Below, in pieces: positions 219 to 56,907 of a DNA stretch of 64,000 bases; the stretch's first letter is position 1, and the number at the start of each line of letters is the position of its first letter. Below the pieces are notes generated by a model. That model ran no database searches, had not been told where the DNA came from, and saw only the letters and a list, made by a program, of their open reading frames with translations. Source of the DNA: Rhodocyclales bacterium (GTDB taxonomy: Bacteria; Pseudomonadota; Gammaproteobacteria; Burkholderiales; Rhodocyclaceae); the NCBI GenBank assembly GCA_016235165.1, contig JACRLX010000046.1:124001-188000 (forward strand), written 5' to 3'. A program made the position numbers and the translations under genes.

Positions 219-1048
219 TGGCGGCGGATATCCTCGAAAGAATCCTCGCGGTAAAGCGCGAGGAAGTCGCTGCCGGGAAAGCCGTGAAATCGCTCGCGGC
301 CGTTCGTGCCGAGGCCGAGGCACAGGCGCCGGCAAGAAGCTTTGCTGGAGCGATACGGTCAAGAGTTATGCCCCGTGCGAAGCAGGGGGCGGTATCCCTT
401 GCGGACGGCGCTGGTAGTACGGCGGTCATCGCCGAAATCAAGAAGGCCAGTCCATCCAAGGGCGTCATCCGCGCCGACTTCCGCCCGGCCGAAATCGCCG
501 CCGATTACGAGAAGTACGGCGCCGCATGTCTTTCCGTGCTGACCGACCGTCAGTTCTTCCAGGGCTCTCCGGAGTACCTGCAGCAAGCGCGCACCGCTTG
601 CGCGCTGCCGGTGCTGCGCAAGGACTTCCTGGTCGATCCCTGGCAGGTCTATGAAGCGCGCGCCATGGGCGCCGACGCCATCCTGCTGATCGTCGATGCA
701 CTCTCGCTGGCACAGATGCAGGAGATGGAAGCCATCGCCTTTGCTCTCGGCATGTCGGTGCTGGTCGAATGCCACGACGCGGCAGAACTCGACATCGCGC
801 TGCAACTCAAGACACCGCTGGTCGGCATCAACAACCGCAACCTGCGGAGCTTCGAGGTCGATCTCGACACCACTTTGGCGCAGCTCGGCCGCATCCCGGC
901 CGACCGCATCGTGGTCACCGAATCGGGCATCCTCGCCCCGGCCGACGTGGCCTTGATGAACTCGCACGGCGTGCATGCCTTCCTCGTCGGCGAAGCCTTC
1001 ATGCGCGCGCCCTCGCCCGGCGAAGAGCTGGCGCGCTTGTTTGCCTGA
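218..1048 (+). CDS. trpC: Indole-3-glycerol-phosphate synthase
   Basis: This cytosolic (beta/alpha)8-barrel enzyme closes carboxyphenylamino-deoxyribulose phosphate to indole-3-glycerol phosphate. Strand 1 carries the family signature [14 protein letters not shown] with the catalytic Lys, followed by VLRKDF, LLIVDAL, LVECHD, GINNRNL and VVTESGI in order. The protein is 276 residues, about 13 longer than most betaproteobacterial TrpC as I know them. The extra residues, roughly 49-69, sit between the N-terminal helices and strand 1 and are encoded by a dispersed hairpin repeat (362-424) that keeps the frame. The start ATG overlaps the trpD stop. Because the insertion is in the loop before the barrel, the enzyme is probably still active; this is inference. 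Confidence 0.97.
362..424 (+). repeat. Long-form dispersed hairpin repeat, in frame inside trpC
   Basis: The copy starts with GAGTTATG, then a 21-bp imperfect hairpin at 370-390 (arms GCCCC.TGC and GCA.GGGGC, loop GAA), then GGTATCCCTTGCGGA and the tail CGGCGCTGGTAGTACGGCG. It is closely matched at 17097-17157 and, with changed but compensated stem bases, at 35146-35207. A partly deleted copy is at 55981-56024. It encodes part of trpC residues 49-69. Confidence 0.85.
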
Positions 1049-1082
1049 AATCCAAAACTGCCAAGGCGTCCCCGGACAAAGA

Positions 1083-2051
1083 TCAGGGACGTTGCCGCAT
1101 GTCCTCGCCGCAATCCAGGCGCCCTGTCGTCGCCCAGTTCTCGAGCCGTTCCCAGACCAGTTGCACACCGTCTCCCCGTCGGCCCTGCAAGCCATGGTCC
1201 GCCCCGTCCAGGCGCCAATCGCAGACTGACAAGCCATTGGCAGCAGGTAGCGAGCGGAGCCTGTCATAGGCCTGCTGCGGAAGCAAGGCATCGTCGCCGC
1301 CCCAGACACGAAGTACGGGCAGCTTGGCCTCCACCAGCGCTGCCGTGAGTTTCCAGCCGAACATGTCGCGCCAGTAACGCAGGCTGCGCCCTTCGACAAT
1401 CATGTCGTCCGCCTGGCTGGACGCGGCTGTTTCCTTGAGCTTTTTCCAAGCCTGCCCCTGGCCCAGCTTCTCGGCTTGCATTTCGCCGGCGACGGCCGGG
1501 TCGAGCCCGGTTGCCGATAGCAACACCATGCCAAGTGGATTGGGAATCGCCGGGAGCAGATAGGGAACAAGCTCGGCCCCCTCGGAAATCCCGAGCACGA
1601 TAGTCGGCAAGGGAACGGCATCGCCTGCATTCACCTGCCTCAACGCCGCGAGTGCGTCATCGCGCCACGTGCCGAGCGCGTCATGGCGCAGGAACTCAGG
1701 CTGGCATTCGGCCGGCGCCGGCCCGGCGGACAAATCCGCATGAGGCTTGTGCAGCACAATCACCTGCGCCTTCGCCAGACCGCTGAAATACTTGGCAGCA
1801 AACGGCGTGAAGCCGGTACATCCCGAACCGGGAATGACCACCAGACGGAATAGCACAGGGCCCTGCGCTGCCTCGCGCCGCAAGGCCTGTATCCGCGACG
1901 TCGGGGCAAGGCCGGAAAAAACCTCGACGCGCCAGCCAGATGGTATTCCCGGCGGGCCGGATGGGCTGGAAGCGGATTTCCAGGCGCCACAGGAGGATGC
2001 AAGAAGCATGACAAGCGCCAGGCTAGCCCGCCCGCCGGGAAACATCGCCAA
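1083..2051 (-). CDS. Alpha/beta-hydrolase-fold lipoprotein
   Basis: The 322-residue product has an N-terminal hydrophobic segment ending in a lipobox-like LASSC, so it is probably anchored in a membrane as a lipoprotein. The hydrolase fold is suggested by GISEG (nucleophile-elbow pattern G-x-S-x-G) near residue 164, an acidic turn WGGDDALLP and a late His in GADHGL, which together would form a Ser-Asp-His triad. Substrate is unknown. It converges with trpC, 34 bp away, and is probably transcribed with the lipoprotein genes just upstream (10-bp gap). Confidence 0.7.
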   Translation of the reverse strand: MAMFPGGRASLALVMLLASSCGAWKSASSPSGPPGIPSGWRVEVFSGLAPTSRIQALRREAAQGPVLFRLVVIPGSGCTGFTPFAAKYFSGLAKAQVIVLHKPHADLSAGPAPAECQPEFLRHDALGTWRDDALAALRQVNAGDAVPLPTIVLGISEGAELVPYLLPAIPNPLGMVLLSATGLDPAVAGEMQAEKLGQGQAWKKLKETAASSQADDMIVEGRSLRYWRDMFGWKLTAALVEAKLPVLRVWGGDDALLPQQAYDRLRSLPAANGLSVCDWRLDGADHGLQGRRGDGVQLVWERLENWATTGRLDCGEDMRQRP

Positions 2052-2060
2052 GCGCAGAGA

Positions 2061-2942: not shown

Positions 2943-2954
2943 GATTGCCTCCAA

Positions 2955-3554: not shown

Positions 3555-3566
3555 GGGGATCTCCGC

Positions 3567-3959
3567 TTACTGGGTCTCTACGTTCATTTCAATACGAAAA
3601 TCGACCGCCGACGAATGCAGGGCGACGCTTTTCACGGTCAGTATCTGATGGCCGAGAACGGTCATCTGCTTCCAGGACTCACCATCACCAACTTGGCTTC
3701 CGCTGCTGTCGAGCCAGCGAAAGCGGTAGAACACGGTGCGATTCGAATCCGTGGTGCTTTTCATGTCGGCCTGCACCACCATCACGTCATTGCGCCGGAC
3801 GATGCGGATTTCCGGAATCACGATGTCATTGGCGTCGCCGCGCAACTGGATCTTTGCCGCCACGGCGGCCGGCGTCCCCGTCGGGACGCCCGATTGCGCC
3901 ATCGCCGTCCCGGCCATCGCGGCAAGTACAAGGGGCAACAGAAAGTTCCTGAGTTTCAT
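3567..3959 (-). CDS. YcfL-like (DUF1425) secreted protein
   Basis: This 130-residue protein has a signal peptide (MKLRNFLLPLVLAAMAGTAMAQ) and a beta-sandwich-like domain with YRFRWLDSSGSQVGDGESWKQM, the hallmark of the YcfL/DUF1425 family. The start at 3959 is set by the signal peptide and a GGAG ribosome-binding site. In enterobacteria ycfL is the neighbour of lpoB, and the same order is kept here. The function is not established. Confidence 0.72.
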   Translation of the reverse strand: MKLRNFLLPLVLAAMAGTAMAQSGVPTGTPAAVAAKIQLRGDANDIVIPEIRIVRRNDVMVVQADMKSTTDSNRTVFYRFRWLDSSGSQVGDGESWKQMTVLGHQILTVKSVALHSSAVDFRIEMNVETQ

Positions 3960-15353: not shown

Positions 15354-16330
15354 CGCCAGACTTCGGGATTGACCAGGTTGGGCGGGCGCTGGCCCGACAG
15401 CGCGGCGATCAGGTTGTCGGCCGCGGTCATCGCCATTGCCATGCGCGTGGCGCGCGAGCTGGAACCGATATGCGGCGTCAACGTGACGTTGTCGAGTTCG
15501 AGGAAGCCGGGGTTGAGCCTGGGCTCGCCCTCGAACACATCGAGCGCGGCACCCGAAAGTCGGCGCTGGCGCAACGCCGAAATCAGCGCCGCATCGTCCA
15601 CGATACCGCCGCGGGCGACGTTGATCAGGTGTGCCGTCGGCTTCATCAAGGCCAGCTCGGCGGCACCGATGATGTGGTGGCTCTCGGCCGAATAGGGCAG
15701 CAGCAGGACCAGGAAATCGGCTTCGCGCAACAGGGTCGCCTTGTCCACCCAGGTGGCGTGGCAGGCGGCCTCCTTGTCGGCCGGCAGGCGGCTGCGGTTG
15801 TGGTAGATCACCTTCATCTCGAAGCCCAGCGCGCGCCGCGCCACGGCCTGGCCGATGCGGCCCATGCCGAGGATGCCGAGCGCCGCGTGGTGCACGTCGC
15901 TGCCCAGCCAGTCGGTCATCTTGAAACCCTGCCAGTGCCCGGCGCGCAGCCAGTGCTCGGAGCTCTGGATATGGCGCGCGGTGGCCATCAACAAGGCCCA
16001 GGCCAGGTCGGCCGTGGTCTCGTCGAGCACCCCCGGCGTATTGGTGGCGAGGATGCCGGCGCGGGTGCAGGCGACAAGGTCGATGTTGTTGTAGCCGACG
16101 GCGAAATTGCACACCGCCTTGAGCCGCGGCGCGGCGGCGATCACCTCGGCGGTGATGGGGTCGCTGACCGCGCTCATGACGCCGGCCTTGTCGGCCAGCC
16201 GCAGCTTGAGACCTTCGACCCCGAGGATGACGTCGGCCCGGTTGTCGTCGACCTCGAAATGTGGACGCAGATAATCGATGACTTCGGGAAACACTTCGCG
16301 GGCGACGAGGATCCTTGGTTTAGTTGCCAT
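15350..16330 (-). CDS. D-2-hydroxyacid dehydrogenase (glyoxylate/hydroxypyruvate reductase type)
   Basis: 326 residues from the ATG at 16330. The Rossmann domain shows LGILGMGRIGQAVARRA for NAD(P), and the catalytic Arg, Glu and His appear in NVARGGIVDD, FEGEPRLN and LTPHIGSSSRATR. Members reduce glyoxylate, hydroxypyruvate or 2-ketogluconate. It overlaps the 3' end of dctM by 11 bp, and the TRAP system may import its substrate. The segment ALRQRRLSGAAL is encoded by DNA resembling the 26-bp dispersed repeat (15554-15579), although these residues are also normal for the family. Confidence 0.92.
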   Translation of the reverse strand: MATKPRILVAREVFPEVIDYLRPHFEVDDNRADVILGVEGLKLRLADKAGVMSAVSDPITAEVIAAAPRLKAVCNFAVGYNNIDLVACTRAGILATNTPGVLDETTADLAWALLMATARHIQSSEHWLRAGHWQGFKMTDWLGSDVHHAALGILGMGRIGQAVARRALGFEMKVIYHNRSRLPADKEAACHATWVDKATLLREADFLVLLLPYSAESHHIIGAAELALMKPTAHLINVARGGIVDDAALISALRQRRLSGAALDVFEGEPRLNPGFLELDNVTLTPHIGSSSRATRMAMAMTAADNLIAALSGQRPPNLVNPEVWR

Positions 16331-18386
16331 ACAGCACCCTGGGCAGCCACATGCCGATATCGGGGAAGACATAGAGCAGCGCCAGCGCCACCACCTGGAT
16401 GCCCATGAAGGGCATCATGCCGGCGAAGATCTGGTTCAGCGTCACGTGCGGCGGCGACACGCCCTTGAGGTAGAAGGCCGCCATCGCCACCGGCGGCGAG
16501 AGGAAGGCGGTTTGCAGGTTGAGCGCCACCAGCAGGCCGAAGAACAGCGGATCGATGTGAAAGTGCGCCAGCAGCGGGATGAAGATCGGCATGAAGATGA
16601 CGATGATCTCGGTCCATTCCAGCGGCCAGCCGAGGATGAAAATGATGAACTGCGACAGCAGCATGAATTGCAGCGGCGTCAGGTCCATCGACAGCACCCA
16701 CTTCTCCACCAGTTCCTGGCCGCCGAGCAGGGCGAAGGCGGCGGAGAAGATCGAGGAGCCGACGAACAGCCAGCAGACCATGGCCGAGGTCTTCGCCGTG
16801 AGGAACACCGATTCCTTGATCACGCCCAGGTTGAGCTGCTTGTAGGCGGCGGCCAGGACGAAGCCGCCGGCAGAGCCGATGGCCGCGGCCTCGGTCGGCG
16901 TCGCCAGGCCGAAGACGATACTGCCCAGCACGGCGAGGATCATGATCGCCAGCGGGAAGAACGACGCCAGCAGCATCTTGAAGATTTCGAGCCGGACGAA
17001 GGTGAAGATGGCGTAGAAGCCGACCGCGGCGACGAGACTGACGCCGGCCAGGATCCAGTACCAGGGAGGAACCGGCAGGCGCTCCTGCTCTTCGGCAGTT
17101 ATGCCTCCGGCAGTGCCGGAGGCGGTATCCCCTGCGGACTGCGCTGGTGGTACGGCGACCGCGACCGGCGCTGCCTGTGCCGGAGCCTGTGCCGCCTCAG
17201 TCGGCGGCTCCTTGGCCCCTTCCTGCGGCGGCTCCTTGACACCATCGGCTGGCGGCTCCTTGACGCCCTCCTCGTCCCCTGCCGGCGGTTCCTTGACGCC
17301 CTCGGCTTCTTCTTCCGGTTCGGCGACACCCTCGGCCTTGGGCTCCTGCGCACTGCCCTCGGCAGGCGCCGACGCCTGATCGGCGCCGCCGCCGCCCATT
17401 TCCACCAGGCCGGCAGTCTCGACCTTGACCTCGGGCTTGGTCGCCACGTGCCACATGAAGCCGAGGAACAAGGCCAGGGTGATCGCCGGCAGCAGCGCGA
17501 TGAAGCCCTGTCTGGCGATTTCGCCACCACCCAGCCCGAGCCTGCGCGAACCCTTGAGCGCGCCGATCAGGCCCGGAACCACGCGGTGGCTGACCGCGTC
17601 GCGAATTTTGGCCGTTGCCGGCGGCAGGTCGATGTGGCGTTCCTCCATCGACAGCGGCGGCGCCAGATGTGGCTTCAGCTTGGCAAGCAGGACCACGTAA
17701 ATGATGTACAGGCCGGCCAGCATGATGCCGGGGAAGAAGGCGCCGGCATACAGCTGCACCACCGAGACGCCAGCCGTGGCGCCATACACGATCAGCATCA
17801 CCGAGGGCGGGATCAGGATGCCGAGGCAGCCGCCGGCGGTGATCACGCCGGCCGAGATCTTGATGTCATAGCCCGATTTCAGCATCGCCGGAAAGGCCAG
17901 CAGGCCCATCAGCGTCACCACGGCACCGACGATGCCGGTGGCGGTGGCGAAGATGGCGCAGGTCACCAGCGTCGCCACCGCCAGCGAGCCCGGCACCCGC
18001 GCCAGCGCCAGTTCGAGGGAACGGAACAATTTGGCGATCAGGTTGGCGCGCTCCACCAGGTAGCCCATGAAGACGAACAGCGGGATCGAAATCAGCACGT
18101 CGTTGCTCATCACCGCATAGGCGCGCTGCACCATCAGGTCCAGGGTCTGGCGCACGGCGATCTCGGGGTTGCCGCTGCGGTAAGCGAACCAGGCGAAGAT
18201 CACGCCCATGCCCATCAGGGTGAAGGCGGTGGGGAAGCCGAGCATGATCGCCACCACCACCAGCGACAGCATCAGCAGGCCGAGGTGGCCGTTGGAGAGG
18301 TTGCCCCAGGGCATGAAGATCGCCGTGACGACGAGAATCACCGCCATCAGGCTGAAGCCGAAATACAAGTCCTTCTTGATCTTCAT
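16320..18386 (-). CDS. dctM: TRAP transporter large permease with long low-complexity insert
   Basis: The 688-residue protein is the DctM subunit of a tripartite ATP-independent transporter, of the FcbT3/COG4664 type by its start (MKIKKDLYFGFSLMAVILV). Transmembrane helices fill both halves. Between them, about residues 325-440, is a hydrophilic loop rich in Ala, Glu, Pro and Lys with repeats of the type GVKEPPADGVKEPP. The loop end (VPPAQSAGDTASGTAGG) is encoded by the dispersed hairpin repeat at 17097-17157. The family has a loop here, but the sequence looks expanded. The gene overlaps dctQ by 4 nt and the dehydrogenase by 11 nt. Confidence 0.92.
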   Translation of the reverse strand: MKIKKDLYFGFSLMAVILVVTAIFMPWGNLSNGHLGLLMLSLVVVAIMLGFPTAFTLMGMGVIFAWFAYRSGNPEIAVRQTLDLMVQRAYAVMSNDVLISIPLFVFMGYLVERANLIAKLFRSLELALARVPGSLAVATLVTCAIFATATGIVGAVVTLMGLLAFPAMLKSGYDIKISAGVITAGGCLGILIPPSVMLIVYGATAGVSVVQLYAGAFFPGIMLAGLYIIYVVLLAKLKPHLAPPLSMEERHIDLPPATAKIRDAVSHRVVPGLIGALKGSRRLGLGGGEIARQGFIALLPAITLALFLGFMWHVATKPEVKVETAGLVEMGGGGADQASAPAEGSAQEPKAEGVAEPEEEAEGVKEPPAGDEEGVKEPPADGVKEPPQEGAKEPPTEAAQAPAQAAPVAVAVPPAQSAGDTASGTAGGITAEEQERLPVPPWYWILAGVSLVAAVGFYAIFTFVRLEIFKMLLASFFPLAIMILAVLGSIVFGLATPTEAAAIGSAGGFVLAAAYKQLNLGVIKESVFLTAKTSAMVCWLFVGSSIFSAAFALLGGQELVEKWVLSMDLTPLQFMLLSQFIIFILGWPLEWTEIIVIFMPIFIPLLAHFHIDPLFFGLLVALNLQTAFLSPPVAMAAFYLKGVSPPHVTLNQIFAGMMPFMGIQVVALALLYVFPDIGMWLPRVLYGN
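17097..17157 (+). repeat. Long-form dispersed hairpin repeat, in frame inside dctM
   Basis: AGTTATG is followed by a perfect hairpin at 17103-17123 (arms GCCTCCGGC and GCCGGAGGC, loop AGT), then GGTATCCCCTGCGGA, CTGCGCTGGTGGTACGGCG. It runs opposite to dctM and encodes part of the variable hydrophilic loop. It is the closest relative in the window of the trpC copy outside the hairpin. Confidence 0.85.
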
Positions 18387-22376: not shown

Positions 22377-22378
22377 AT

Positions 22379-22404
22379 CGCCGTAGCACCAGCGCCGACT
22401 TTCA
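22379..22404 (-). repeat. Short-form (26-bp) dispersed repeat after uspA
   Basis: Read on the minus strand it begins TGAAAGTCGGCGCTGG and ends TACGGCG. It differs at 3 of 26 positions from the copy at 58444-58469 and shares its right half with the tail of the long-form repeat. It lies outside coding sequence. Confidence 0.7.
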
Positions 22405-22500
22405 GTTTTCCTCTGCCGCCGCAGGCGGCCAAGCTTTGTCGCCCCCTTCCCTGGGACGTAGGCGGGGTTTCGTGGAGCACTGCTCCGCGCCGCCGTAGCC

Positions 22501-22522
22501 GGCCGGCTGTGCAAAGCCGGCC
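22501..22522. repeat. Perfect hairpin between uspA and rnpB
   Basis: GGCCGGCT and AGCCGGCC flank a six-base loop. It lies in a 204-bp gene-free stretch (22377-22580) that also holds the short repeat and the rnpB-side hairpin. It may terminate uspA or belong to a repeat family; no U tract follows. Confidence 0.4.
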
Positions 22523-22559
22523 GTGGGGCGGGGTTGGGGGGAAGGCTCATCAGATCCCC

Positions 22560-22580
22560 ACCAATCGCTCCGCGATTGGT
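22560..22580 (-). terminator. Hairpin at the 3' end of rnpB
   Basis: Arms ACCAATCGC and GCGATTGGT with a GGA loop begin immediately after the P1 stem of RNase P RNA on the minus strand. No T run follows, so it may be a weak terminator or a processing barrier. Confidence 0.55.
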
Positions 22581-22954
22581 GGGAAGTCCGCCGATAAGCC
22601 GGGTTCTGTCGTGGGCAACCATTCCTCTGGGACCATTGTTGCCAATGGCCTCTAGCAGCCTACCCGGGAGCGACGCGGGCCGCGCCCATGCTCCCCTATT
22701 TGGCCTTGCTCCGGATGGGGTTTGCCGTGCCGTCCGTGTTGCCACGTCCGCGGTGAGCTCTTACCTCGCCATTTCACCCTTGCCGGTCCTTGCGGACTTA
22801 GGCGGTATCTTTCTGTTGCACTTTCCGTCGCCTTCATCGTCCGACTGGCGTCTTTCGACTTATAGCGCCCGGCCGTTAGCCGGCATCCTGCCCTGTGGAG
22901 CCCGGACTTTCCTCCCATCGCTTGCGCGATCAGCGGTTGCCTGGCGAACTTCCC
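22581..22954 (-). ncRNA. rnpB: RNase P RNA, bacterial type A
   Basis: This catalytic RNA matures tRNA 5' ends. On the minus strand the conserved core reads GAGGAAAGTCCGGGCTCC near the 5' end, then AAGGGTGAAA, GGTAAGAGC, CGGAGCAAGGCCAAATAGGG and finally ACGACAGAACCCGGCTTATC. The ends are set by a 12-bp P1 helix between GGGAAGTTCGCC (5') and GGCGGACTTCCC (3'), giving about 374 nt. The last 25 nt of the DUF3025 gene overlap its 5' end. Confidence 0.96.
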
Positions 22955-23730
22955 GCGCGCATTCTACGCGGCGGGCGGAACTGCCGCGTATCTTCGTAGT
23001 AGGCGGGATCCTCATTGTCCGGCGTGGCGCCGGGAATGCCGAGCAGCGGCAGGGGTTGCCAGTCGCGCGGCGCGAAATCCCTCTCCCCGAGTTGCGCCGC
23101 AAGGCGCGCATCGAGTTCCGCCATCGCGGGCTCGGCCGACAGCTTCAGCCACGCGACATCGACCTCGATGAACAAGGCCTTGCCGCACAGGCCGACAAAG
23201 GGCGCGCCGAGGGCATCGTGGCTGGCGTGACCGAAGACGACAAAACGCGTCGTGCGCAGCAGTTCCGCACGCCGCTCGACGAAAACTTCGCGCCAGCGGT
23301 GGTCACACAGCCCCTGCCACAGCTCGGGCGCCGTGCCGGCGACGATGACGCCGCATTCGTCGAACTGAGTCAGCGCGTCGCGCAAGGGGCCGCGCGCTTC
23401 ATTTCCCGCGATACGCGCCGCCCGCAGCGCCTGGTGATGACGCCGGTTCATCGCCGCCTTGCTGCGAGGGAAGGCCAGCCAGATCAGCGCGTTGAAAAGG
23501 TCGTGGCGGTTGTCGGCACGGGTCGCGACCTCGCCGCAGCGGTACGCGCGCTCTTCATAGCCCTCGCCATCATCGGGTGGCACGACGAAGCGGAGCCGTG
23601 CGCCACCACCGGTCAGAATGCCGCGCGCGGCGGCGACGTTATTCAGTACATCGAGATCGGGAACGCCTTCCTGCAGCCAGGGCGCGAGGAAGGCCGACAG
23701 CGGATGCACTGTCAGAGAGTCGGCGCTCAC
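22930..23730 (-). CDS. DUF3025-family protein
   Basis: About 266 residues from the GTG at 23730. The family pattern is visible in the central DLFNALIWLAFPRSKAAMN and in LTQFDECGVIV and FGHA. Its function is unknown. It starts 10 bp after the pyrC stop, so it is probably cotranscribed with pyrC. The stop lies inside the 5' end of rnpB. DNA around its start resembles the short dispersed repeat (23714-23739), which could explain the poorly defined N-terminus. Confidence 0.8.
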   Translation of the reverse strand: MSADSLTVHPLSAFLAPWLQEGVPDLDVLNNVAAARGILTGGGARLRFVVPPDDGEGYEERAYRCGEVATRADNRHDLFNALIWLAFPRSKAAMNRRHHQALRAARIAGNEARGPLRDALTQFDECGVIVAGTAPELWQGLCDHRWREVFVERRAELLRTTRFVVFGHASHDALGAPFVGLCGKALFIEVDVAWLKLSAEPAMAELDARLAAQLGERDFAPRDWQPLPLLGIPGATPDNEDPAYYEDTRQFRPPRRMRAGSSPGNR

Positions 23731-23740
23731 GCCACGGCGA

Positions 23741-24775
23741 TCAGGCCAGCCGCCAGGCGACGCTCTCCCCGGCACGCAGCGGCACCAGCCGGTCGCCCGG
23801 CAGGTAGTCGAGGCTGGCGGGCACGGCCTGTGCCTCGCGCTTCAGCGTGATCGTTCCGGCATTGCGCGGCAGGCCGTAGAAATCCGGGCCATGAAAGCTG
23901 GCAAAGCCTTCCAGCTTGTCGAGCGCGCCCTCCGCATCGAAGACCTCGGCATACAGCTCGATGCCGGCATTCGCCGTGTAGCAGCCGGCACAACCGCAGG
24001 CGGCTTCCTTGGTGCTTTGCGCGTGCGGCGCGGAATCCGTGCCGAGGAAGAACTTCGGGCTGCCCGAGATCGCCGCCGCGACCAGTGCCCGGCGATGGGT
24101 TTCGCGCTTCAGCACCGGCAGGCAGTAGTGGTGCGGCCGGATGCCGCCGGCGAAGATCGCATTGCGGTTGAGCAAGAGGTGATGCGCGGTCAGCGTGCCG
24201 GCGACATTGGCGCCGCCGGCATTGACGAAGTCGATGCCGTTCCTGGAAGTGATGTGCTCCAGCACCAGTTTCAAGCCGGGGAAGTCGCGCAGCAGCGGCA
24301 CCAGCACGGTATCGATGAACACCGCCTCGCGGTCGAAGACATCGACCGCCGGATCGGTGACCTCGCCATGCACCAGCAATGGCAGGCCGAGCTTTTCCAT
24401 GCGCGTCAGCGTGGCGGCACAGCGCTTGAGCTCGCTGACGCCGGCGTCGGAATTGGTGGTGGCGCCGGCCGGATAAAGCTTCACCGCATGGACGAAGCCG
24501 CTCGCCCGGGCGGCGTCGATCTCCGCAGGGGCCATGTTGTCGGTGAGATACAGCGTCATCAGCGGCTGGAAGTCCATGCCCGCCGGCAATGCAGCGAGGA
24601 TGCGCTCGCGGTAGGCGGCGGCCAGCGCCACCGTGGTCACCGGCGGCTTCAGGTTGGGCATGACGATGGCACGGGCGAAGCGGCGCGCGGTGTCGGGCAA
24701 AACGGCGGCCATGGCCGCACCGTCGCGCAGGTGCAGGTGCCAGTCGTCGGGACGGGTGAGGGTGATCGAGTTCAT
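23741..24775 (-). CDS. pyrC: Dihydroorotase
   Basis: 344 residues, the class II (E. coli PyrC) length. The metal site [10 protein letters not shown] is near the N-terminus, with further zinc ligands in LLVHGEV and LEHITSRNG, and the late [11 protein letters not shown] supplies the catalytic Asp. It cyclises carbamoyl-aspartate in pyrimidine synthesis. The start at 24775 gives the normal [14 protein letters not shown]-terminus. Confidence 0.96.
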
Positions 24776-24808: not shown

Positions 24809-25642
24809 TCAGTCGCCCTTCATCTCCAGGGCTCTCGCATACAGGGCATTCTTAGGCTGGCCGGTGATCTCGGCGGCGAGCTTCGCCGCCTGCTTCACCG
24901 GCAGCTCGGCCAGCAGGGCCGCCAGCACGCGCTCGGCCTCGGCGTTCATGCCCTCACGCGGCGGTGGCGCCGATACCAGCAGCACGAATTCGCCGCGCTC
25001 GCGGTTGGCATCGGCCGCCAGCCACGCAGGTGCCTCGGCCAGCGGCATGGCTGCGATCTGCTCGAAAAGTTTGGTCAGCTCGCGGGCAAAGACGATGCGG
25101 CGCGCACCGTCGAGCAAGTCGACGAGGTCGGCGACGGTCTCGCGCACGCGGTGCGGCGCTTCGTAGAACACCAGCGTGGCCTCGACCGCCGCCAGCGCCG
25201 AAATCGCCGTCCTGCGGGCGCCGACTTTTGCCGGCAGGAAGCCGACGAAGAGGAAGCGCGGATCGGTCAGTCCCGCGGCCGACAGGGCCGTGATCGCGGC
25301 ATTCGGCCCGGGGATGGGGATCACCTTGAAGCCGGCGCCACGCACGGCGGCCACGGCACGCGCGCCGGGATCGGAAACGCCTGGCGTGCCCGCATCGGTG
25401 ATCAGGGCAACGCGCCTGCCGGCAGCCAGTTGGGCGAGCAGCTTTGCGGCGGCCTCGTTCTCGTTGTGCTGGTGCAGCGCAAGGGTCTGCACCTTGATGC
25501 CGTGATGGTCGAGCAACTGGCGTGCATGGCGCGTGTCCTCGCAGGCCACCAGGTCGACGCCGCGCAGGGTTTCCAGGGCGCGCAGCGTGATGTCGCCGAG
25601 GTTTCCGATCGGTGTGCCGACGACATACAATGCGCTTTCCAT
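24809..25642 (-). CDS. rsmI: 16S rRNA (cytidine1402-2'-O)-methyltransferase
   Basis: 277 residues from the ATG at 25642. The tetrapyrrole-methylase fold is shown by LYVVGTPIGNLGDIT, VACEDTRHA, LITDAGTPGVSDPG, IPGPNA and FVGFLPAK, all diagnostic for RsmI. It methylates C1402 in the ribosomal decoding centre. The start codon overlaps the divergent yraN start codon (CATG). Another in-frame ATG at 25651 would lengthen it slightly. Confidence 0.96.
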   Translation of the reverse strand: MESALYVVGTPIGNLGDITLRALETLRGVDLVACEDTRHARQLLDHHGIKVQTLALHQHNENEAAAKLLAQLAAGRRVALITDAGTPGVSDPGARAVAAVRGAGFKVIPIPGPNAAITALSAAGLTDPRFLFVGFLPAKVGARRTAISALAAVEATLVFYEAPHRVRETVADLVDLLDGARRIVFARELTKLFEQIAAMPLAEAPAWLAADANRERGEFVLLVSAPPPREGMNAEAERVLAALLAELPVKQAAKLAAEITGQPKNALYARALEMKGD

Positions 25643-27694: not shown

Positions 27695-28183
27695 TTGTCC
27701 TACGCGCCACCGGCCTTCGAGGCCAAGATCGCCGACCCGGTCGGACTCGCCGCACGCATCGCCGTGCTGCCGCGCCCGCTGGTGTTCACCAACGGTTGTT
27801 TCGACATCCTGCACCGCGGCCACGCCACCTACCTCGCGCAGGCCAGGTCGCTTGGCGCGTCGCTGGTGGTCGCCGCCAATTCCGACGCCTCGGTGCGCCG
27901 CCTGGGCAAGGGCGGGGACAGGCCGGTGAATGCCCTGGCCGATCGCATGGCGCTGCTGGCGGCGCTGGAATGCGTTTCCCTGGTGACCTGGTTCGACGAG
28001 GACACGCCGCTGGCCCGCATCCACGATTGCCGGCCCGATGTGCTGGTCAAGGGCGGCGACTGGCCGGTGGAAAGGATCGTCGGCTACCGTGAAGTCACGG
28101 ACTGGGGCGGCAGCGTGCATTCCATCCCCTTCATCCACCAGCGCTCGACCACGGCCCTGCTGGAAAAGATCCGCCGGCTCTGA
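27695..28183 (+). CDS. rfaE2: D-glycero-beta-D-manno-heptose 1-phosphate adenylyltransferase
   Basis: The 162-residue nucleotidyltransferase corresponds to the C-terminal half of HldE. It shows VFTNGCFDILHRGHATYL with the H-x-G-H motif, NSDASVRRLGKG and STTALLEKI. It activates heptose phosphate for LPS core synthesis. No ATG precedes the conserved core in frame, so the TTG at 27695, after AGGGACAGG, is the likely start. The stop codon TGA is also the first three bases of a short dispersed repeat. Confidence 0.93.
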   Translation: MSYAPPAFEAKIADPVGLAARIAVLPRPLVFTNGCFDILHRGHATYLAQARSLGASLVVAANSDASVRRLGKGGDRPVNALADRMALLAALECVSLVTWFDEDTPLARIHDCRPDVLVKGGDWPVERIVGYREVTDWGGSVHSIPFIHQRSTTALLEKIRRL

Positions 28184-28206
28184 AAGTCGGCGCCAGCGAC
28201 ACGGCG
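28181..28206 (+). repeat. Short-form dispersed repeat providing a stop codon and hairpin
   Basis: TGAAAGTCGGCGCCAG...ACGGCG differs from the copy inside the histidine kinase gene (32475-32500) at only 2 of 26 positions. It supplies the TGA of rfaE2 and, with the next bases, forms an inverted repeat CGGCGCC / GGCGCCG followed by ATTTTC, so it could terminate rfaE2 before the convergent TAXI gene. Confidence 0.75.
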
Positions 28207-28217
28207 CCGCGATTTTC

Positions 28218-32121: not shown

Positions 32122-34962
32122 TCAGTCGGCGATCATCGCCGCCAGTTTGCCGGTGAGGACATCCAGCGCGTCGGCCAGATGATGCACCTGTTCGCGCCAA
32201 TCCTCGTGCTCGACCGCGACGGCCTGTTCGACATGGGCGGCAAAGCCGCCGAAGCGCTCTGCCCCGACATAGGGTGAACTCCCCTTGAGCTTGTGGGCTA
32301 TCGCCCGCAATCCTTCGCGGTCATTGCCGCGCGCCTGGTCGCGCAGGACTTCCGGCATCTCCCGGTACTGTTCGAGGAAGCGCCGGATCACCGCGATCAT
32401 GCGTTCCGTTTCGCCCATCGCGTAACGCAAGGCAAGATCCTGGTCGATGTGATCAAGCCCTTCGCGCAGCGTCGCGAAAGTCGGCGCCGGCGACACGGCG
32501 CGCCTGGCCAGGGGAGACTTCAGCCAGCGTTCGAGGCGGGTCATGAGCGTGGGGAAATCCACCGGCTTGGTGACGAAATCGTTCATCCCCGCCGCCAGGC
32601 AGCGCTCCCTTTCCTCCGCCAGGGCATGCGCGGTCATGGCGATGATGGGCAGTTCATCCGCCGTGCACCGCTTGCGTATGGACCGGCTGGCCTCGATGCC
32701 GTCCATTTCAGGCATCTGGATGTCCATCAATACCAGATCCCAGTGTTCGCGCTCCACCGCCGCAATGGCTTCGCGTCCGTTGTTCACGATCACCAGCGTG
32801 GCCCCGGTCAGGGAGATCTGGTCGGCAGCGACAAACTGGTTCAATGGATTGTCTTCCGCAAGGAGAATGCGCGCACCTCTGAAGTCGGGCCGCGCGGCGG
32901 CAAGTCCGGCATCCGGCAACACGGCCGTGGCGCCGGCCAGAATGCGGGCCAGAGTTTGTTCCAGACTCCGGCGCGTGACCGGCCGATGGAGAACCTGGAC
33001 ACGTGGCGAGGCCATGCCCAGCTCGGCACCGAAAGGCGCAATGAGCAACAGGGGAACCCGGGCGACGGCATCCAGCATTTGCCGGGCTTCGACTTCACTG
33101 CCCGCGATCATGAGTTGCGGTGTCTCGCCGACGCCAGCCCGGCGAGCGCCCATGCCGGCGATCAAACCGGATACCAGTGCCGCCAGCCCCGGATCGGCCT
33201 CCCCGACCCGAATCGGGACGCCAACCAGCGTGGGCTCCGGCTCGACGGAAGCCCCCCAGGCCGGATCCAGGGTAAAGTGAAATTCGCTGCCCAGTCCCAG
33301 CCTGCTGCTGACCCGGACCTCGCCGCCCATCAGCGCCACCAGGCGACGGCAGATCGCAAGGCCCAGCCCGGTGCCCCCATACTTGCGCGTGGAGGACGTA
33401 TCGGCTTGGGCAAAGGGGTAAAACAGGCGCCCGATCTGCTCCTCGCCGAGCCCGATGCCGGTGTCCCTTACCGAGAAGCGCAGGGCCGTCGCGGAAACCT
33501 CGGTCGCCGGCGAGACGGCAAGCACGACTTCGCCGCGCTCGGTGAACTTGATTGCATTGCCAACCAGGTTGCTCAATACTTGGCTCAGGCGCAGTGAATC
33601 GCCACGAATGCGGCGCGGCGTTCCACTGTCGAGTTCGACGCGCAGCTCCACGGGCTTGCCGAGCGCCATGGTCGCGCCGAGGCCGACCACGCGCTCGATG
33701 ACTTCATCGAGATCGAATTCGATGTCTTCCACCACCAGCTTGCCGGCTTCGATCTTGGAAATATCGAGGATGTCATTGATGATGCCCAGCAAATGCTCGG
33801 CGGCGGAATGTGCCTTCATCACATAGTCGCGCGGCTTCTCGGGCATCGCCTCGCGCAAGGCCAGCGCGCTCAGTCCAAGCACGGCATTCATCGGCGTGCG
33901 GATCTCGTGACTCATGTTGGCGAGGAACTCGCTTTTCGCCTGGGTCGCGGCCTCGGCCGCCGCCAGTGCCGCGGCCAGGCGCCGGGTGTAACCGCGCTGC
34001 CGGCGCGCGGCCCGCTCCAGCAGGATGTAGATCAGGATCACCGCCATCGCCGAACCGGCCAGCATCAGGACCAGTATCTGATTCGCATGGAGGCGACCCG
34101 CCGCCTCGGCGCTTTCCACATCGAGCGCCAATACCGCCGTCGCGAATGGAATGCCGGCGCCGTCATACAGGTTAACCGCACGCAACTGGTAGCCGGGGAT
34201 TTCCCCGCGCTCGCTTCCGCTGGCGACGAGTTCCTGTATTCGTTGCCGTTCCATCACGGGAAAATCGCCGGCGGCCACTTCGAGGCTGGGGTTCGATCCC
34301 GCCTCGCCGCGCAGGCGGAATATGCCGAAGGCCGTGTCGCCCGGCTGGCCATGCGCCGCATGTTGCTCGGTTTCCAGGCGCAGCAGGGCATTCACCGTAT
34401 CCAGCTTGGGATTGAGGCTGGTCGACAGCAGCAGATAGGCAATGATGCGGCCCTGGCTTTGTACCGGGCTGACGTGGAATACATGCAAATGCGCATCCTC
34501 GTGCATGTCCATCGCGTAGGCCGTACCGCCCTTGCGGCGCGCCATTTCGAACACGGCGGGCAGGCTTCCCCGCATCCCGCCATGGTTGCCGAAAAGCCGC
34601 TTGCCCTCGGGGCTGAGGATTTCCACCCCGTCCACCAGGCCCGGCGAGCTTTGTTCGATGGCCAAGGCACGCCGGTCGAGCTGCACGGTCTGGTCTGCCT
34701 CGATGGCAGCAACAAGGGAGGGGTCACGCGCGTGGATTTCGCCGACCAGCGCAAGCTTCTCCGCCGCCGCCTGCTCGTGGTCGCGCAGCAAGGACCGCAT
34801 CATGACGGCGGTATGCTCGGTATTGCGCCAGATCGACGCCCGGGCGTCGTCTTCGATCTGGCGGCTGGTTATCAGCGACCCGAACAGCAACAGCACGGCG
34901 AGCAGCAATGCCAGCGAACGATTCCCGCCACCGGCAAAGCTTTCCGGTATGGCTTTCAACAT
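32122..34962 (-). CDS. Hybrid sensor histidine kinase with receiver and HPt domains
   Basis: 946 residues from the ATG at 34962, after GGAGGGGAAG. Order: TM helix (about 18-32), a Cache-like extracytoplasmic sensor (about 33-290), second TM (295-315), a HisKA domain with phospho-acceptor His352 in SHEIRTP, an HATPase with DTGIGL and GGTGLGLAI, a degenerate receiver lacking a clear Asp, an intact receiver ([13 protein letters not shown]), and an HPt domain with [10 protein letters not shown]. This is a full BarA-like phosphorelay on one chain. No response-regulator gene is adjacent. The linker between receiver and HPt contains a short dispersed repeat. Confidence 0.93.
32475..32500 (+). repeat. 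Short-form dispersed repeat inside the histidine kinase gene
   Basis: CGAAAGTCGGCGCCGG...ACGGCG matches the copy at 28181-28206 at 24 of 26 positions. It encodes part of the linker [10 protein letters not shown] between the receiver and HPt domains and keeps the frame. Confidence 0.7.
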
Positions 34963-35287
34963 CTTCCCCTCCTTCTCGAGCGCGACGTCTTCTGGCGGAA
35001 ACCGTCGATCGTTACAAACTCCAGACCGGCAAGTATCCCTACGGCCGGTAATGGCTTCAATCCGTAGAAGCCGCAGCCCGGCATTCCCGAAATCGAGAAA
35101 ACGAGCGCCCAAGCTGCACCCGACCGCGGGCCCACGCGCGCACCGAGTCTATGTCTCCGGTAAAGCCGGAGACGGTATCCCTTACCAACGGCGCCGACGG
35201 CACGGCGATATCTCTCGCCTGAACAGCGGGTTCGCTCTGCCGCGTGCAGCAGGGTATATTTGTTGGTTCCCAACCCGATTCAGTCTC
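34963..35287. other. Gene-free region upstream of uvrA and the kinase
   Basis: This 325-bp divergent spacer carries the ribosome-binding site of the kinase at its left end, the long-form repeat at 35146-35207 and an AT-rich patch (GGTATATTTGTTGG near 35250) that may be part of the uvrA promoter. No LexA-type box was recognised. No credible gene is present. Confidence 0.6.
35146..35207 (+). repeat. Long-form dispersed hairpin repeat upstream of uvrA
   Basis: AGTCTATG leads into a perfect hairpin at 35153-35173 (arms GTCTCCGG and CCGGAGAC, loop TAAAG), then GGTATCCCTTACCAA and the tail CGGCGCCGACGGCACGGCG. The stem differs from the dctM copy by paired, compensating changes. It lies 81 bp before the uvrA start, in the same direction. 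Confidence 0.85.
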
Positions 35288-47879: not shown

Positions 47880-47880
47880 G

Positions 47881-49131: not shown

Positions 49132-50199
49132 TCAGAACTCGGGGTACAGGCGGCCGGGATTGAACACGCCATAGGGATCGAAGCGCTGCTTCAGGCGTCG
49201 ATGGATTTCCATCAGCGCCGGGGCCAAGGGCGTGAATACGCCGCCGGCCCGCTGTTCCGCTCGGCCGCCACGGAACAGTGTGGCATGGCCGCCGGCACGC
49301 GTGGCCGCGTCGCGCAGGGTGCCTGCCGCGGCGTCGATCCGAAGCCAGCGCTGCGCACCACCCCACTCGATCAGCGTTGCGCCAGGCAGATCCAGCGGCG
49401 GCGCCACCGAAGGCAGCGACAGGCGCCACAGCGGCCCCTGGTCATCCGCCGCAAAAAAAGCAGCCGTCTGCTCGCGTAGCCCCTGCCAGAAGTCGGTCGC
49501 CGCCGTTTCGCCCATCACTTCACCACCGAGCGCGGTGCAAGCCGCGTTTACCGCCGCCTGTGCGCCCGACAGACGGATGCTCAGCACGCCGTCCTCCCAG
49601 ACGCTGGCGACCAGCGGCAGCGGCCGGCCAGCCCAGCGGTTTAGCGCCTCCAGCGCCTTGTCCTGCGGCAGATCGAAACGCAGACTGGCGTCTCCCGGCG
49701 GCACCGGCAGCACCTTGAGCGAGACATCGAGGATCAGCCCCAGCGTGCCGAGGCTGCCAACCATCAGGCGCGAGACATCGAAACCCGCCACGTTCTTGAT
49801 CACTTCGCCGCCGAACTTGAGCACACGGCCTTCGCCATCCATGATCCTCACGCCCAGCACGAAGTCGCGCAGGCTGCCCGCCGTCGCCCGGCGCGGTCCG
49901 GAGAGGCCGGCGGCGACCGCGCCGCCGACGGTGGCGCCACCAAAGTCCGGCGGCTCGCAGGCAAGGCACTGGCGCCGTTCCGCCAGCGCCGACTCCAGTT
50001 CCGCCAGCGACGTTCCGCAGCGGGCGGTGATCACCAGCTCGCTTGGCTCGTAACTGATGATGCCGTTGTAGGCCCGGGTCTCCAGCACCTGACCGGCCAG
50101 CGGCCCGCCGTAGAAATCCTTGCTGCCGCCGCCACGCGGGCGCAATGGCTTGCGCTCCATGATGCGGGCACGGAATTCGTCGAGCATGCCCTGGACCAT
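49132..50199 (-). CDS. glcE: Glycolate oxidase FAD-binding subunit
   Basis: 355 residues from the ATG at 50199. The FAD-binding PCMH fold appears in LRPRGGGSKDFYGG and PPDFGGATVGGAVAAGLSGPRRATAGSLRDFVLGV, and a C-terminal end of FDPYGVFNPGRLY is typical. It is a shortened relative of GlcD. Its ATG overlaps the glcD stop by a base, so the two are coupled. Confidence 0.95.
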   Translation of the reverse strand: MVQGMLDEFRARIMERKPLRPRGGGSKDFYGGPLAGQVLETRAYNGIISYEPSELVITARCGTSLAELESALAERRQCLACEPPDFGGATVGGAVAAGLSGPRRATAGSLRDFVLGVRIMDGEGRVLKFGGEVIKNVAGFDVSRLMVGSLGTLGLILDVSLKVLPVPPGDASLRFDLPQDKALEALNRWAGRPLPLVASVWEDGVLSIRLSGAQAAVNAACTALGGEVMGETAATDFWQGLREQTAAFFAADDQGPLWRLSLPSVAPPLDLPGATLIEWGGAQRWLRIDAAAGTLRDAATRAGGHATLFRGGRAEQRAGGVFTPLAPALMEIHRRLKQRFDPYGVFNPGRLYPEF

Positions 50200-53760: not shown

Positions 53761-54064
53761 CGCCCGATTCTATATGTCCCCGACTATGTCGGGGACGGTA
53801 TCCCTCTTGTGGATATGTCCCCGACTATGTCGGGGACGGTGTCCCTCTTGTGGATATGTCCCCGACTATGTCGGGGACGGTGTCCCTTTTGCGGATATGT
53901 CCCAATGAGTTGCGGACATTTACCCTCCGCCGAAAGTTCCGCGGAAACCGCCAATTTATTGTTGCCGACAGCGCAGCAATCAATTGAAGTCGCACGTATT
54001 TCCCCGCTCCTCCGATCCGCGTAAAGTCCGGCTCTCGCAAACAGCATACGTGCAACGATCCGCC
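53761..54064. other. Divergent gene-free region between hyi and cytochrome b561
   Basis: The first half is the tandem repeat array (53773-53932). The second half, to 54064, includes AT-rich words (CAATTTATTGTTG, CAATCAATTGAAG) that could hold a promoter for the b561-yceI genes. No gene is supported. Confidence 0.6.
53773..53932 (+). repeat. Tandem 41-bp array of the long-form repeat
   Basis: Three units starting at 53773, 53814 and 53855 are 41 bp apart and nearly identical. A degenerate fourth starts at 53896. Each has TATG, a perfect hairpin (arms GTCCCCGAC and GTCGGGGAC, loop TAT), then GGTATCCC or GGTGTCCC and CTCTTGTGGA or a close variant. The stem differs from the other long-form copies by paired changes, and the CGGCGCTGG tail is absent. 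Confidence 0.9.
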
Positions 54065-54637: not shown

Positions 54638-55203
54638 AATCCAACCTCACCCTGTCCTGCCTCGCACTGATCGCCAGCCTGCTGCATGCCCCGGCAGCAC
54701 AGGCCGTCGAGTTCAAGCAGTTTCAGGCGGCGAAGAGTTCGCTGTCCTTCGTGTACAAGCAGATGAATGTGCCGGTCGATGGCCAGTTCAAGAACTTCCG
54801 CGCCAGGATCGCCTTCGACCCCGCCAAGCCGACCGCCGCCAAGGCCGAATTCGAAATCGACCTGGCCAGCATCGACGCCGGCTCCAAGGACGCCAACGAC
54901 GAAGTCGCCGGCAAGGCCTGGTTCGACACCAAACAGTTTCCGGTTGCGAAGTTCGTCGCCAGCTCGGTCAAGCCCTTGGGCAACAACCGCTACGAGGTCG
55001 CCGGCAAGATGAGCATCAAGGGCAAGACCCAGGATCTCGCCACGCCGGTTACCGTAAGCCAGCAAGGCGACGGCGCCAGTTTCGACGGCAGCCTGGTGTT
55101 GAAGCGCGCCGACTATGCCATCGGCGACGGCGTCTGGGCCGACTTCGGCACCGTCGCCAACGAAATCCAGATCAAGTTCCACCTCGTTGCCACCAGCAAG
55201 TAA
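54634..55203 (+). CDS. YceI-family lipocalin-like protein, first copy
   Basis: 189 residues with a signal peptide ending at AAQAVEF. YceI features: SSLSFVYKQMNVPVDGQFKNFRARIAFDP, WFDTKQFPVAKFVASS and the end GVWADFGTVANEIQIKFHL. YceI proteins bind isoprenoid molecules in the periplasm. Pairing with cytochrome b561 is common. A second copy follows 22 bp downstream. Confidence 0.92.
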   Translation: MKSNLTLSCLALIASLLHAPAAQAVEFKQFQAAKSSLSFVYKQMNVPVDGQFKNFRARIAFDPAKPTAAKAEFEIDLASIDAGSKDANDEVAGKAWFDTKQFPVAKFVASSVKPLGNNRYEVAGKMSIKGKTQDLATPVTVSQQGDGASFDGSLVLKRADYAIGDGVWADFGTVANEIQIKFHLVATSK

Positions 55204-55225
55204 TCCAACCACCCAGGAGAAACCC

Positions 55226-55792
55226 ATGAACAAGCTCGTCCTCGCCGCTGCCCTTGCCAGCTTTTCCGCCACCGGCTTCGCCGCGCCGGAAACCTTCGGC
55301 GTCGAATCCACCCACACCTTTCCGCGCTTCGAGTACAGCCATTTCGGCTATTCGAACCAGGTCCAGCGCTTCGACAAGACCAGCGGCAAGATCGTCCTGG
55401 ATCGTGCCGCCAAAACGGGATCGGTCGATGTGAGCATCGACGCCAGGTCGGTGAATACCGGCTATGCCCTGTTCAACCAGCACATCCAGGCCGAGGATTA
55501 CTTCCACACCGAGAAATTTCCCAGCATCAGCTTCAAGTCGACCGCCGTCAAGTTCGATGGCGACAAGCCGGTCGCCATCGAAGGCAACCTGACCATCAAG
55601 GGTGTGAGCAAGCCGGTGACCTTGACCGTGACCAGCTTTCACGCCATGCCGCACCCGATGCTGAAAAAGGACGCCATCGGCGCCAATGCCTCGACCACCG
55701 TCAAGCGCTCCGAATTCAACATGGGCAAGAACGTGCCCTACGTCAGCGACGAAGTGAAAATCAGCATCGCCGTCGAAGCCGTCAAGGAATAA
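55226..55792 (+). CDS. YceI-family lipocalin-like protein, second copy
   Basis: 188 residues: signal peptide MNKLVLAAALASFSATGFAA, then VESTHTFPRFEYSHFGYSNQVQRF, AEDYFHTEKFPSISFKST and MLKKDAIGANASTTVKRSEF. It is nearer to canonical E. coli YceI than the first copy. AGGAG lies before the ATG. A small GCCGG-loop-CCGGC hairpin follows the stop. Confidence 0.93.
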   Translation: MNKLVLAAALASFSATGFAAPETFGVESTHTFPRFEYSHFGYSNQVQRFDKTSGKIVLDRAAKTGSVDVSIDARSVNTGYALFNQHIQAEDYFHTEKFPSISFKSTAVKFDGDKPVAIEGNLTIKGVSKPVTLTVTSFHAMPHPMLKKDAIGANASTTVKRSEFNMGKNVPYVSDEVKISIAVEAVKE

Positions 55793-55815
55793 GCCGGCCT
55801 TTCCGGCGGCGGCGC

Positions 55816-56907
55816 CTACAGGGCAATGCTGCCGACTTCGTGCGAGAGCGCCTCGATGGCGCTCTCGTCCATTTCGAGCAGGCGCTTGCCCAGCGCGGCA
55901 AAATGCTCCTGCCCGGCGCTGGCGGCCAACAACATCGCCGTCACCTGCCCGCGAAGCGGAGTCCCAGGTGCGCAGAGCGCGTCAGCGCCGTCCCGCAAGG
56001 GGATACCGCTTCGCATAACTCTTGCCGCGTAGGCTGACTGCAGGCGCGGAAACATCTCGCGCCGCAAGCCTTCGAAGGTGGCGAACCAGAAGTGCAGCGA
56101 ATCCGTGGATTCGCGGCGCAGCAGGCCCGGCAGCGTCACCAGGCAATCCGCCAGGTTGTCCTTGACGGCGCGGGCAAAGATTTCCGCGCGCTTGCCGCCC
56201 AGGCTGGCGAGCTTGGCCTGCCAGCCGGCGCCGAGCACGCGGGCGGCGGCAAGTTCGCCCTCCTCGTGCAGCACCAGGGTTTCGATCTCGCCTTCGGTCA
56301 TGCGTTCGATCGCGGCCTGCGGATCGATGTCGTAGCCATACGCCAGCAGAGCCGACTTGAGCGCGCCGTCCTGCTGTTTCTGGTCCCAGCCCTCGGCCTT
56401 CTCCCACAGCCACTGGTGCAGCGCCTCGCGCCGCACGATCAGCGTCGCGCCCTGCGAAGCGGCCGGAATGGCGGCGACGTCGCGCGCATATTCGCAGCCG
56501 CAGACCAGCAGGCGGGCATCGCCGCGCCGCTCGTCGCGCGCCAGTTCGCCAAGGAAGAAATGCGGCTTGCGGAAGCGGCCGATGCCGGCGCCATAGACCA
56601 GGCCGCTGCCGGCCAGTGCGGCGTTCACCGCGTCGGCGTCAAACGGATCGATCGCGCTCCCGGCGACCGGAACGGCAACAAAGTCATCGCTGGCAATGCT
56701 TTCCCAACGCTGCTCGCGCGCGGCGATCCAGAGCCCCACCTCCTCGCGCGGCGGCATCACGCCATGGGGCAGCTGGTGTTCCCAACGATAGAACTCGCGC
56801 ATGCCGAGCAGGTAGGTGCACAGGCTGACGTCACGCGCATGGCGCGCGTCGGCGATGTCGCAGTTGGTCTGCACCGCGCCCACCAGGGCGGCCATGCCGG
56901 CGATCAC
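55816..56907 (-). CDS. Sfum_1244-like protein of unknown function
   Basis: About 363 residues from the GTG at 56907, which overlaps the stop of the gene upstream; an ATG at 56895 is also possible. The N-terminus VQTNCDIADARHARDVSLCTYLLGMREFYRWE resembles what I recall as the Sfum_1244 family. The function is unknown. Cys residues occur at NCDIADA, LCTYL and LVCGCEYA. The C-terminal third contains VMRSGIPLRDGADAL, coded by a shortened dispersed repeat (55981-56024). Confidence 0.7.
   Translation of the reverse strand: MIAGMAALVGAVQTNCDIADARHARDVSLCTYLLGMREFYRWEHQLPHGVMPPREEVGLWIAAREQRWESIASDDFVAVPVAGSAIDPFDADAVNAALAGSGLVYGAGIGRFRKPHFFLGELARDERRGDARLLVCGCEYARDVAAIPAASQGATLIVRREALHQWLWEKAEGWDQKQQDGALKSALLAYGYDIDPQAAIERMTEGEIETLVLHEEGELAAARVLGAGWQAKLASLGGKRAEIFARAVKDNLADCLVTLPGLLRRESTDSLHFWFATFEGLRREMFPRLQSAYAARVMRSGIPLRDGADALCAPGTPLRGQVTAMLLAASAGQEHFAALGKRLLEMDESAIEALSHEVGSIAL
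55981..56024 (-). repeat. Truncated long-form repeat inside the Sfum_1244-like gene
   Basis: Read on the minus strand it has CAAGAGTTATGCGAAGC (identical words occur in the trpC copy), then GGTATCCCCTTGCGGGACGG and CGCTGAC. Most of the hairpin is deleted, so the arms are missing. It is in frame with the gene. Confidence 0.75.

Follow-up and report, generated by a model that had tools for sequence, protein, structure and literature searches.

Introduction

The Neisseriaceae and the Pasteurellaceae have been named as the sole families known to select the DNA of their kin by short genomic motifs (PMC12616744, 2025). In Neisseria, uptake sequences occur most often in permissive core-genome regions and are missing from genes acquired recently (PMC2397512), their dialects are congruent with the core-genome phylogeny (PMC3630211) and in-frame copies show a preferred orientation (PMC2346458). 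Here we analyze a dispersed hairpin repeat and the 24-bp motif in which it is embedded, starting from a stretch of 64,000 nucleotides of a Rhodocyclales bacterium (GCA_016235165.1, contig JACRLX010000046.1, positions 124,001 to 188,000), henceforth the window. We propose that the motif may be a self-DNA tag working like a DNA uptake sequence (DUS), and that the hairpins are inserts that home into it.

Other described repeats also offer comparisons. Rickettsia palindromic elements are palindromic inserts in frame within unrelated proteins, and the small dispersed repeats of cyanobacteria are very short, numerous and nested. Repetitive extragenic palindromic (REP) elements, their hairpin-forming doublets (REPINs) and the REP-associated tyrosine transposases (RAYTs) are grouped into super-families such as GTAG and CGTC (PMC3733652). 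A first-pass annotation of the window by a model had suggested selection for structure in DNA or RNA, or replication of the repeat by a transposase of the last kind.

Results

The hairpin repeat was reported at five places in the window as TATG, a 21-bp hairpin and a shared tail. All five are present (Table 1), but the repeat has a composite build, and the tail is part of a separate and far more abundant motif. AAAGT and CGGCGCTGGnnnnACGGCGA, which end the repeat, are the two halves of this 24-bp motif, which first appeared as a short repeat made solely of the ends among the weak matches of a covariance model. The motif is bipartite, AAGTCGGCGCTGG-nnnn-ACGGCGA, with 20 fixed positions over 24 and an information content of 32.5 bits. 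When the 4.47-Mb genome (G000; relatives carry G labels and extracted loci L labels) was searched on both strands with AAGTCGGCGCTGGnnnnACGGCGA at no more than 2 mismatches, 608 copies were found, 299 forward and 309 reverse, against 0/0 in the reversed-sequence control.

The placement of the motif was examined in an 858-kb sample consisting of the window and further sequence of the same genome. At a threshold of 3 mismatches the sample holds 148 copies, whereas neither the reversed pattern nor any of three permuted ones gave a match. According to a home-made gene caller, which makes 92% of the sample coding, 103 copies lie wholly within genes, 8 partly so and 37 between genes. The in-gene copies run along the gene direction in 52 cases and against it in 51. 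They favor particular reading frames, with 41/0/11 copies in the three frames on the same strand (p 5e-12) and 30/15/6 on the opposite strand (p 2e-4), and the peptides most often encoded are KVGAGDTA-like and AVSPAPTF-like. At one locus, L101, inverted 24-mers a few bases apart are followed by T-rich sequence, an arrangement resembling a terminator made from the motif.

The history of individual copies was followed in six syntenic regions with 51 motifs. For 34 of these a relative with both flanks was available, giving 121 motif-relative pairs. The pairs were ungapped in 75 cases, with relatives at 0–11 mismatches, 12 of them at 6 or more; 27 of the 34 motifs had at least one ungapped pair, representing about 12 distinct orthologous sites by our grouping. 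At this place in TrpC, G041 and other outgroups have R-I-A-A-G; in many members of the genus the codons read K/R-V-G-A-G and hold the motif, with the length unchanged. RsmI is ungapped at its motif in 26/26 aligned genus genomes, 25 of which carry the motif at no more than 3 mismatches. At the compared sites, the motif comes and goes mainly by substitution in place.

The motif is also better conserved than the sequence around it. Averaged per motif, identity was 88.8% at motif positions, 80.0% in the flanks and 71.8% at the 4 N positions; per pair, the corresponding values were 88.5%, 80.5% and 77.3%. Motif identity exceeded flank identity at 23/27 motifs. We considered whether the 24-mer could itself be a very small mobile repeat copied to new sites, as its hundreds of near-identical copies, its nested inserts and two relatives without 33–36 bp at one gene-end site might suggest. 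This is very improbable, because a loss of 22–28 bp was found in none of the 121 syntenic pairs, ungapped relatives span 0–11 mismatches, and TrpC and RsmI carry the motif in conserved codons with no indel.

The hairpins are separate small DNA inserts sitting inside the 24-bp motif, and they are a minor part of the system. A pattern blind to the flanks, in which only TATG and GGTATCCC were fixed (TATGN{16,34}GGTATCCC), gave 24 matches in the own genome and 0 in its reversed control; 23 contain a hairpin, and L016 looks spurious by eye. A hairpin covariance model trained on 20 own copies, tail included, gave 39 matches at E<1e-4, the training copies among them. Many copies, genome-wide and in relatives, support the first-pass annotation in this respect. 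By the thresholds applied, both motif halves flank 16/23 of the flank-blind hairpins (17 with L023, by eye); hairpins also occur singly, next to an inverted motif or as tandem arrays. The corresponding figure for model-derived hairpins, 26/35, is biased upward because the model was trained with the tail. It comes from a list of 42 own model matches that omits array copies, partial matches in antisense and several of the lowest-scoring ones; a script found no hairpin core in 7 of the 42, although L053 and L090 do have one by eye, and 35 remain.

Inserts of type A read TATG-stem-loop-GGTATCC...GGA and are mostly 24, 27 or 39 bp long. They lie between AAAGT and CGGCG in a single orientation, and target duplication is not visible. 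Filled and empty sites could be compared for each length: 39 bp in TrpC, 27 bp in G013 at window position 23716, and 24 bp in G002 versus G010. At 55933–56023 the window has 60 extra bases relative to G017, namely a 27-bp type A insert and a 33-bp type B insert, the latter within the motif's variable part. The copy reported here, at 55969, is real but, in place of the 21-bp hairpin, has the short 27-bp insert with a GCGAAGC core. A type-B-like insert was seen by eye in TrpC of G022, G026, G007 and G015. At the site of window position 23716, G019 (L203) carries a different insertion of ~107 bp within the same motif.

The length of the inserts is compatible with their residence in genes. Distinct inserts from the own genome and from relatives' loci are multiples of three in 40/42 cases; by a second script, 22/26 own inserts are, the exceptions being three of 38 bp and one of 40 bp. 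Inspection by eye showed this second script to have misplaced the insert boundaries at L045, L050 and L099. A division of the 42 distinct inserts into genic and intergenic ones was set aside, as it labelled the TrpC copy intergenic. The reading frame is kept because the length is usually a multiple of three, and host enzymes can survive the inserts because, in addition, the motif sits where the peptide is tolerated. Three in-frame copies do lie within genes as reported, in TrpC (362), in a DctM transporter on the opposite strand (17095) and in a DUF6866 protein (55969). The copy at 35145 lies outside genes, its end falling ~80 bp short of the probable start of uvrA, which was placed by eye at ~35288. 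The array from 53773 likewise exists as tandem copies of the hairpin module, though the tail is missing from it.

The stems of the hairpins covary with pairing kept, as had been claimed. Among 20 own copies, and among 23 distinct 39-nt inserts, 6/9 pairs changed on both sides and 0/500 shuffles scored as high; the measure "further pair types" was ordinary for the 23 distinct inserts (67/500). The foot is TATG, or CATG in two, for 35 own hairpins selected by a script that required [TC]ATG, letters which the covariance model leaves free. When the short form was sought as GC-NNN-GC, the loops were GNA in 124/150 and AAA in 19 among the matches listed. DNA mini-hairpins with a GNA loop and two closing G-C pairs are unusually stable (PMC4686876). 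The loops hint at a single-stranded DNA stage of the inserts; alternatively, the middle base of the loop may vary freely because in one frame it falls on a synonymous codon position. No hairpin was predicted for the short form by the fold tool, whose energy model may not credit GNA loops.

The covariation could also mean that the hairpins are kept as RNA structures, such as attenuators, terminators or mRNA stabilizers. G-U at one pair in 7/23 inserts would fit this, as would the several copies that by eye start right after TGA. Since in-gene copies occur in both orientations, no fold is predicted for the short form and the loops mostly follow the GNA rule for DNA mini-hairpins, we give RNA function a slim chance.

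A REP-associated transposase as the source of the hairpins was not borne out. The sole Y1_Tnp match of the own genome belongs to an IS200 transposase, and the RAYT-like loci inspected in relatives are without the hairpin. A Y1_Tnp match is present in 26/31 genus genomes, many in frames of ~225–275 amino acids, and for two RAYT-like proteins that were checked, the match to NF047646, a model of REP-associated transposases, stays under the cut-off. The type A hairpin was found at 0/15 RAYT-like loci of relatives, two of which lack downstream sequence and two of which have loose pattern matches that are not the repeat. These loci (L371–L385) carry other ends, for example GGGGTCAGAGTCATTTGAC. Five Y1_Tnp-free genus genomes (G001, G007, G011, G016 and G018, several of them incomplete) have 23–34 hairpin matches each. 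RAYT or IS200 as a present source was rejected, given the other ends at 15 loci, the five Y1_Tnp-free genomes and an own genome that has an IS200 and no other Y1_Tnp match.

In a broader form, the hairpins would be ordinary REP elements moved by a RAYT or an IS200-type Y1 transposase, present or past. Their tetranucleotide-plus-hairpin build, single orientation and lack of visible target duplication are in keeping with it, and RAYT-like genes occur in many genus genomes, with the 24-mer at most 300 bp downstream in 8/15 (13 with downstream sequence) compared to 83/792 genes. We nonetheless regard it as quite unlikely, as the foot is TATG or CATG rather than GTAG or CGTC, besides the observations on loci and genomes above. 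Separately, the end hairpin of the IS200 locus L025 (G000:C2:1-1943) resembles by eye the stem of the long insert, and two hairpin copies lie 4–6.5 kb from this locus.

To describe the distribution of the motif, 200 genomes were searched, 31 of the own genus. The motif was found in 31/31 genus genomes at 25–635 copies each, a range that includes genomes of 99% completeness; G016, one of these, has 25. Seven further genera of the family reach at least 20 copies; here G067 has 685, G037 585, G152 301, G167 204, G075 175, G048 97, G074 47 and G052 21. The remaining family genomes have 0–17 copies and other families 0–5. The hairpin model, with E<=0.01 and scoring limited to 35 candidates, gave matches in 31/31 genus genomes (6–36 each) and in 20/119 genomes outside the genus (1–3 each, except G075 with 21).

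Dialects were also seen. An exact search for a CGACG version gave 24 copies in G074, 14 in G010 and 1–2 in five others. In per-genome matrices, pseudocounts included, A takes 66% at the dialect position in G010 (14 sites) and 82% in G074 (12 sites), and the G074 motif tends to finish ACGGCAA in its 12-site matrix. A dialect in G016 was rejected, an 80-kb sample giving 2 sites and its control 2. TrpC also carries the motif in 2 of a set of 80 loci, those of a Rugosibacter metagenome-assembled genome (MAG; L282) and of MAG SKS3.bin56 (L283). In motif-poor genera, the few copies tend to cluster within kilobases to tens of kilobases (G085:C104; G170:C1:1461264-1502265) and look as if imported on DNA of motif-rich relatives. 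Among viral contigs, 41 stretches have one exact motif copy each and are uninformative.

On the two large contigs, the motif is absent for at most 61 kb at a time, in a stretch at C17:265000-326347 (L144–L147). Ten of its genes were scanned with Pfam; they include those for a glycosyltransferase, GDP-mannose dehydratase, mannose-phosphate enzymes, UDP-GlcNAc epimerase, a polysaccharide synthesis protein and sugar aminotransferases. By these predicted functions the stretch is a surface-polysaccharide locus. Its GC content is 62.7%, compared to 65.5–66.7% around it, and its codon use is among the least typical.

The motif and hairpin features of the window are collected in Table 1. In addition, a different dispersed repeat of ~110–130 bp lies at 22415–22555 and has many matches in genus genomes; it adjoins an RNase P RNA gene (22579–22952, minus strand, Rfam). 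At gathering thresholds this gene was the sole Rfam match in the window, and no known RNA family was found for the hairpin repeat.

Table 1 Motif copies, hairpin inserts and associated genes in the window.
Feature	Position	Strand	Comment
trpC, indole-3-glycerol phosphate synthase, 276 aa	218..1048	+	PF00218
Motif with 39-bp hairpin insert (type A, long), in frame within trpC	362..426	+	
24-mer motif, 1 mismatch, in opposite-strand gene	15556..15581	+	Ungapped in 5/5 syntenic relatives (1, 2, 2, 4, 11 mismatches)
Motif with 39-bp hairpin insert, in frame in opposite-strand DctM gene	17095..17159	+	Outside the family's best-matched stretch
24-mer motif, 0 mismatches, intergenic	22377..22402	-	
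24-mer motif, 3 mismatches	23716..23741	+	Exact 27-bp hairpin insert here in G013
24-mer motif, 2 mismatches, inside rsmI (KVGARRTAI)	25203..25228	-	Ungapped in 26/26 aligned genus genomes
24-mer motif, 3 mismatches, gene end	28183..28208	+	Length varies among relatives
24-mer motif, 2 mismatches, in opposite-strand gene	32477..32502	+	
39-bp hairpin insert with 3' motif half, 5' half degenerate	35145..35209	+	Upstream of uvrA
24-mer motif, 2 mismatches, in gene	49971..49996	-	Ungapped in 4/4 syntenic relatives with both flanks
Tandem array, hairpin module alone	53773..53916	+	41-bp period
Motif holding two nested inserts (type A of 27 bp, type B of 33 bp), in frame in DUF6866 gene	55933..56023	-	
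24-mer motif, 0 mismatches, in opposite-strand Fer2-domain gene	58446..58471	+	

Discussion

We propose a two-layer explanation, to which our analysis gives a slightly better than even chance: an uptake-like self-DNA tag, and hairpin elements that insert into the tag. The 24-bp motif would be a tag working like a DNA uptake sequence and kept at hundreds of sites. DNA bearing it would be preferentially bound by a receptor and imported in natural transformation, so that alleles with the motif would be over-represented among recombinants and the motif would accumulate where it is tolerated. The type A and type B elements insert into the motif at fixed places, and would enter as single-stranded DNA through an enzyme or spread by recombination on motif-imported DNA.

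Several observations weigh against an uptake tag. The motif is about twice as long as the ca. 9–12 nt of known uptake motifs (PMC12616744); for this reason we do not file it as a DUS or an uptake signal sequence (USS), though it most likely works like one. The syntenic pairs are of unequal length in 46/121 cases, owing to hairpin inserts, to spacers of variable length and, next to TrpC, to 12-bp indels. Near window position 28183, at a gene end where two relatives are without 33 and 36 bp, gain by indel is possible. Close inverted pairs are rare, with one pair 122 bp apart in the sample and one adjacent pair at L101. Motif density is low both in the genes of least typical codon use and in the most typical ones, and is thus non-monotonic. 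ComEC (PF03772), tried as a discriminator, was rejected, since it is near-universal (182/200 genomes, the own genome included) and does not separate motif-rich from motif-poor genomes. Finally, on the two large contigs 79/130 copies are on the G-rich strand (p 0.018), a mild polarity unneeded for an uptake tag.

This strand bias with GC skew, together with the high information content and conservation of the motif, would suit the binding site of an intracellular chromosome-organizing, replication or repair protein, a site maintained by selection across the genome and exploited by the hairpins as a target. The strand bias of Chi and of the FtsK-orienting polar sequences (KOPS) is stronger than that of the motif. 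The bias is weak for a site of this kind, in-gene copies are evenly oriented, and neither a 61-kb stretch without the motif nor the range of 25–635 copies among genus genomes of 99% completeness is easily reconciled with a chromosomal function. We therefore consider an intracellular-protein site unlikely, and return to the uptake tag.

The wider claim is more tentative, and we place it a little short of even: a third DNA uptake sequence system of independent origin, in a group of Rhodocyclaceae, with a 24-bp bipartite tag, dialects, and hairpins that home into the tag and spread with imported DNA. If true, an uptake system in free-living Rhodocyclaceae would mark a third origin, with twice the motif length, and the reasons for the bacterial preference for kin DNA would become testable beyond animal-associated species. 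The hairpin inserts show how such tags can serve small elements as landing sites at which the frame is preserved. In the freely accessible literature searched, we found no report of uptake sequences in Rhodocyclaceae or of the letters of the motif; its longer strings had no match, and the papers listed with an 11-base substring are unrelated by title.

The inserts resemble Rickettsia palindromic elements in their in-frame palindromic insertion into a conserved protein, TrpC having 13 more codons than in relatives. They differ from the elements as commonly described in that they are 24–42 bp long and their target is a pre-existing genome-wide motif. Compared with the cyanobacterial small dispersed repeats, the 24-mer is gained by substitution, not insertion, at the compared sites. 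With REP elements and REPINs (PMC3733652) the hairpins share a short hairpin, a foot tetranucleotide, many copies and some in-gene locations, but they have a TATG foot, occupy one position in another motif and do not flank the RAYT-like genes inspected.

The closest comparison is with the DUS of Neisseriaceae and the USS of Pasteurellaceae. The 24-mer, known here from sequence alone, differs from these in being bipartite, in its length of 24 bp versus ca. 9–12 nt, in belonging to another family and in carrying hairpin inserts. It is like them in its hundreds of copies on both strands, in their conservation in place, in its dialects and its in-gene frame bias, and in its absence from one variable-looking locus, the 61-kb polysaccharide locus.

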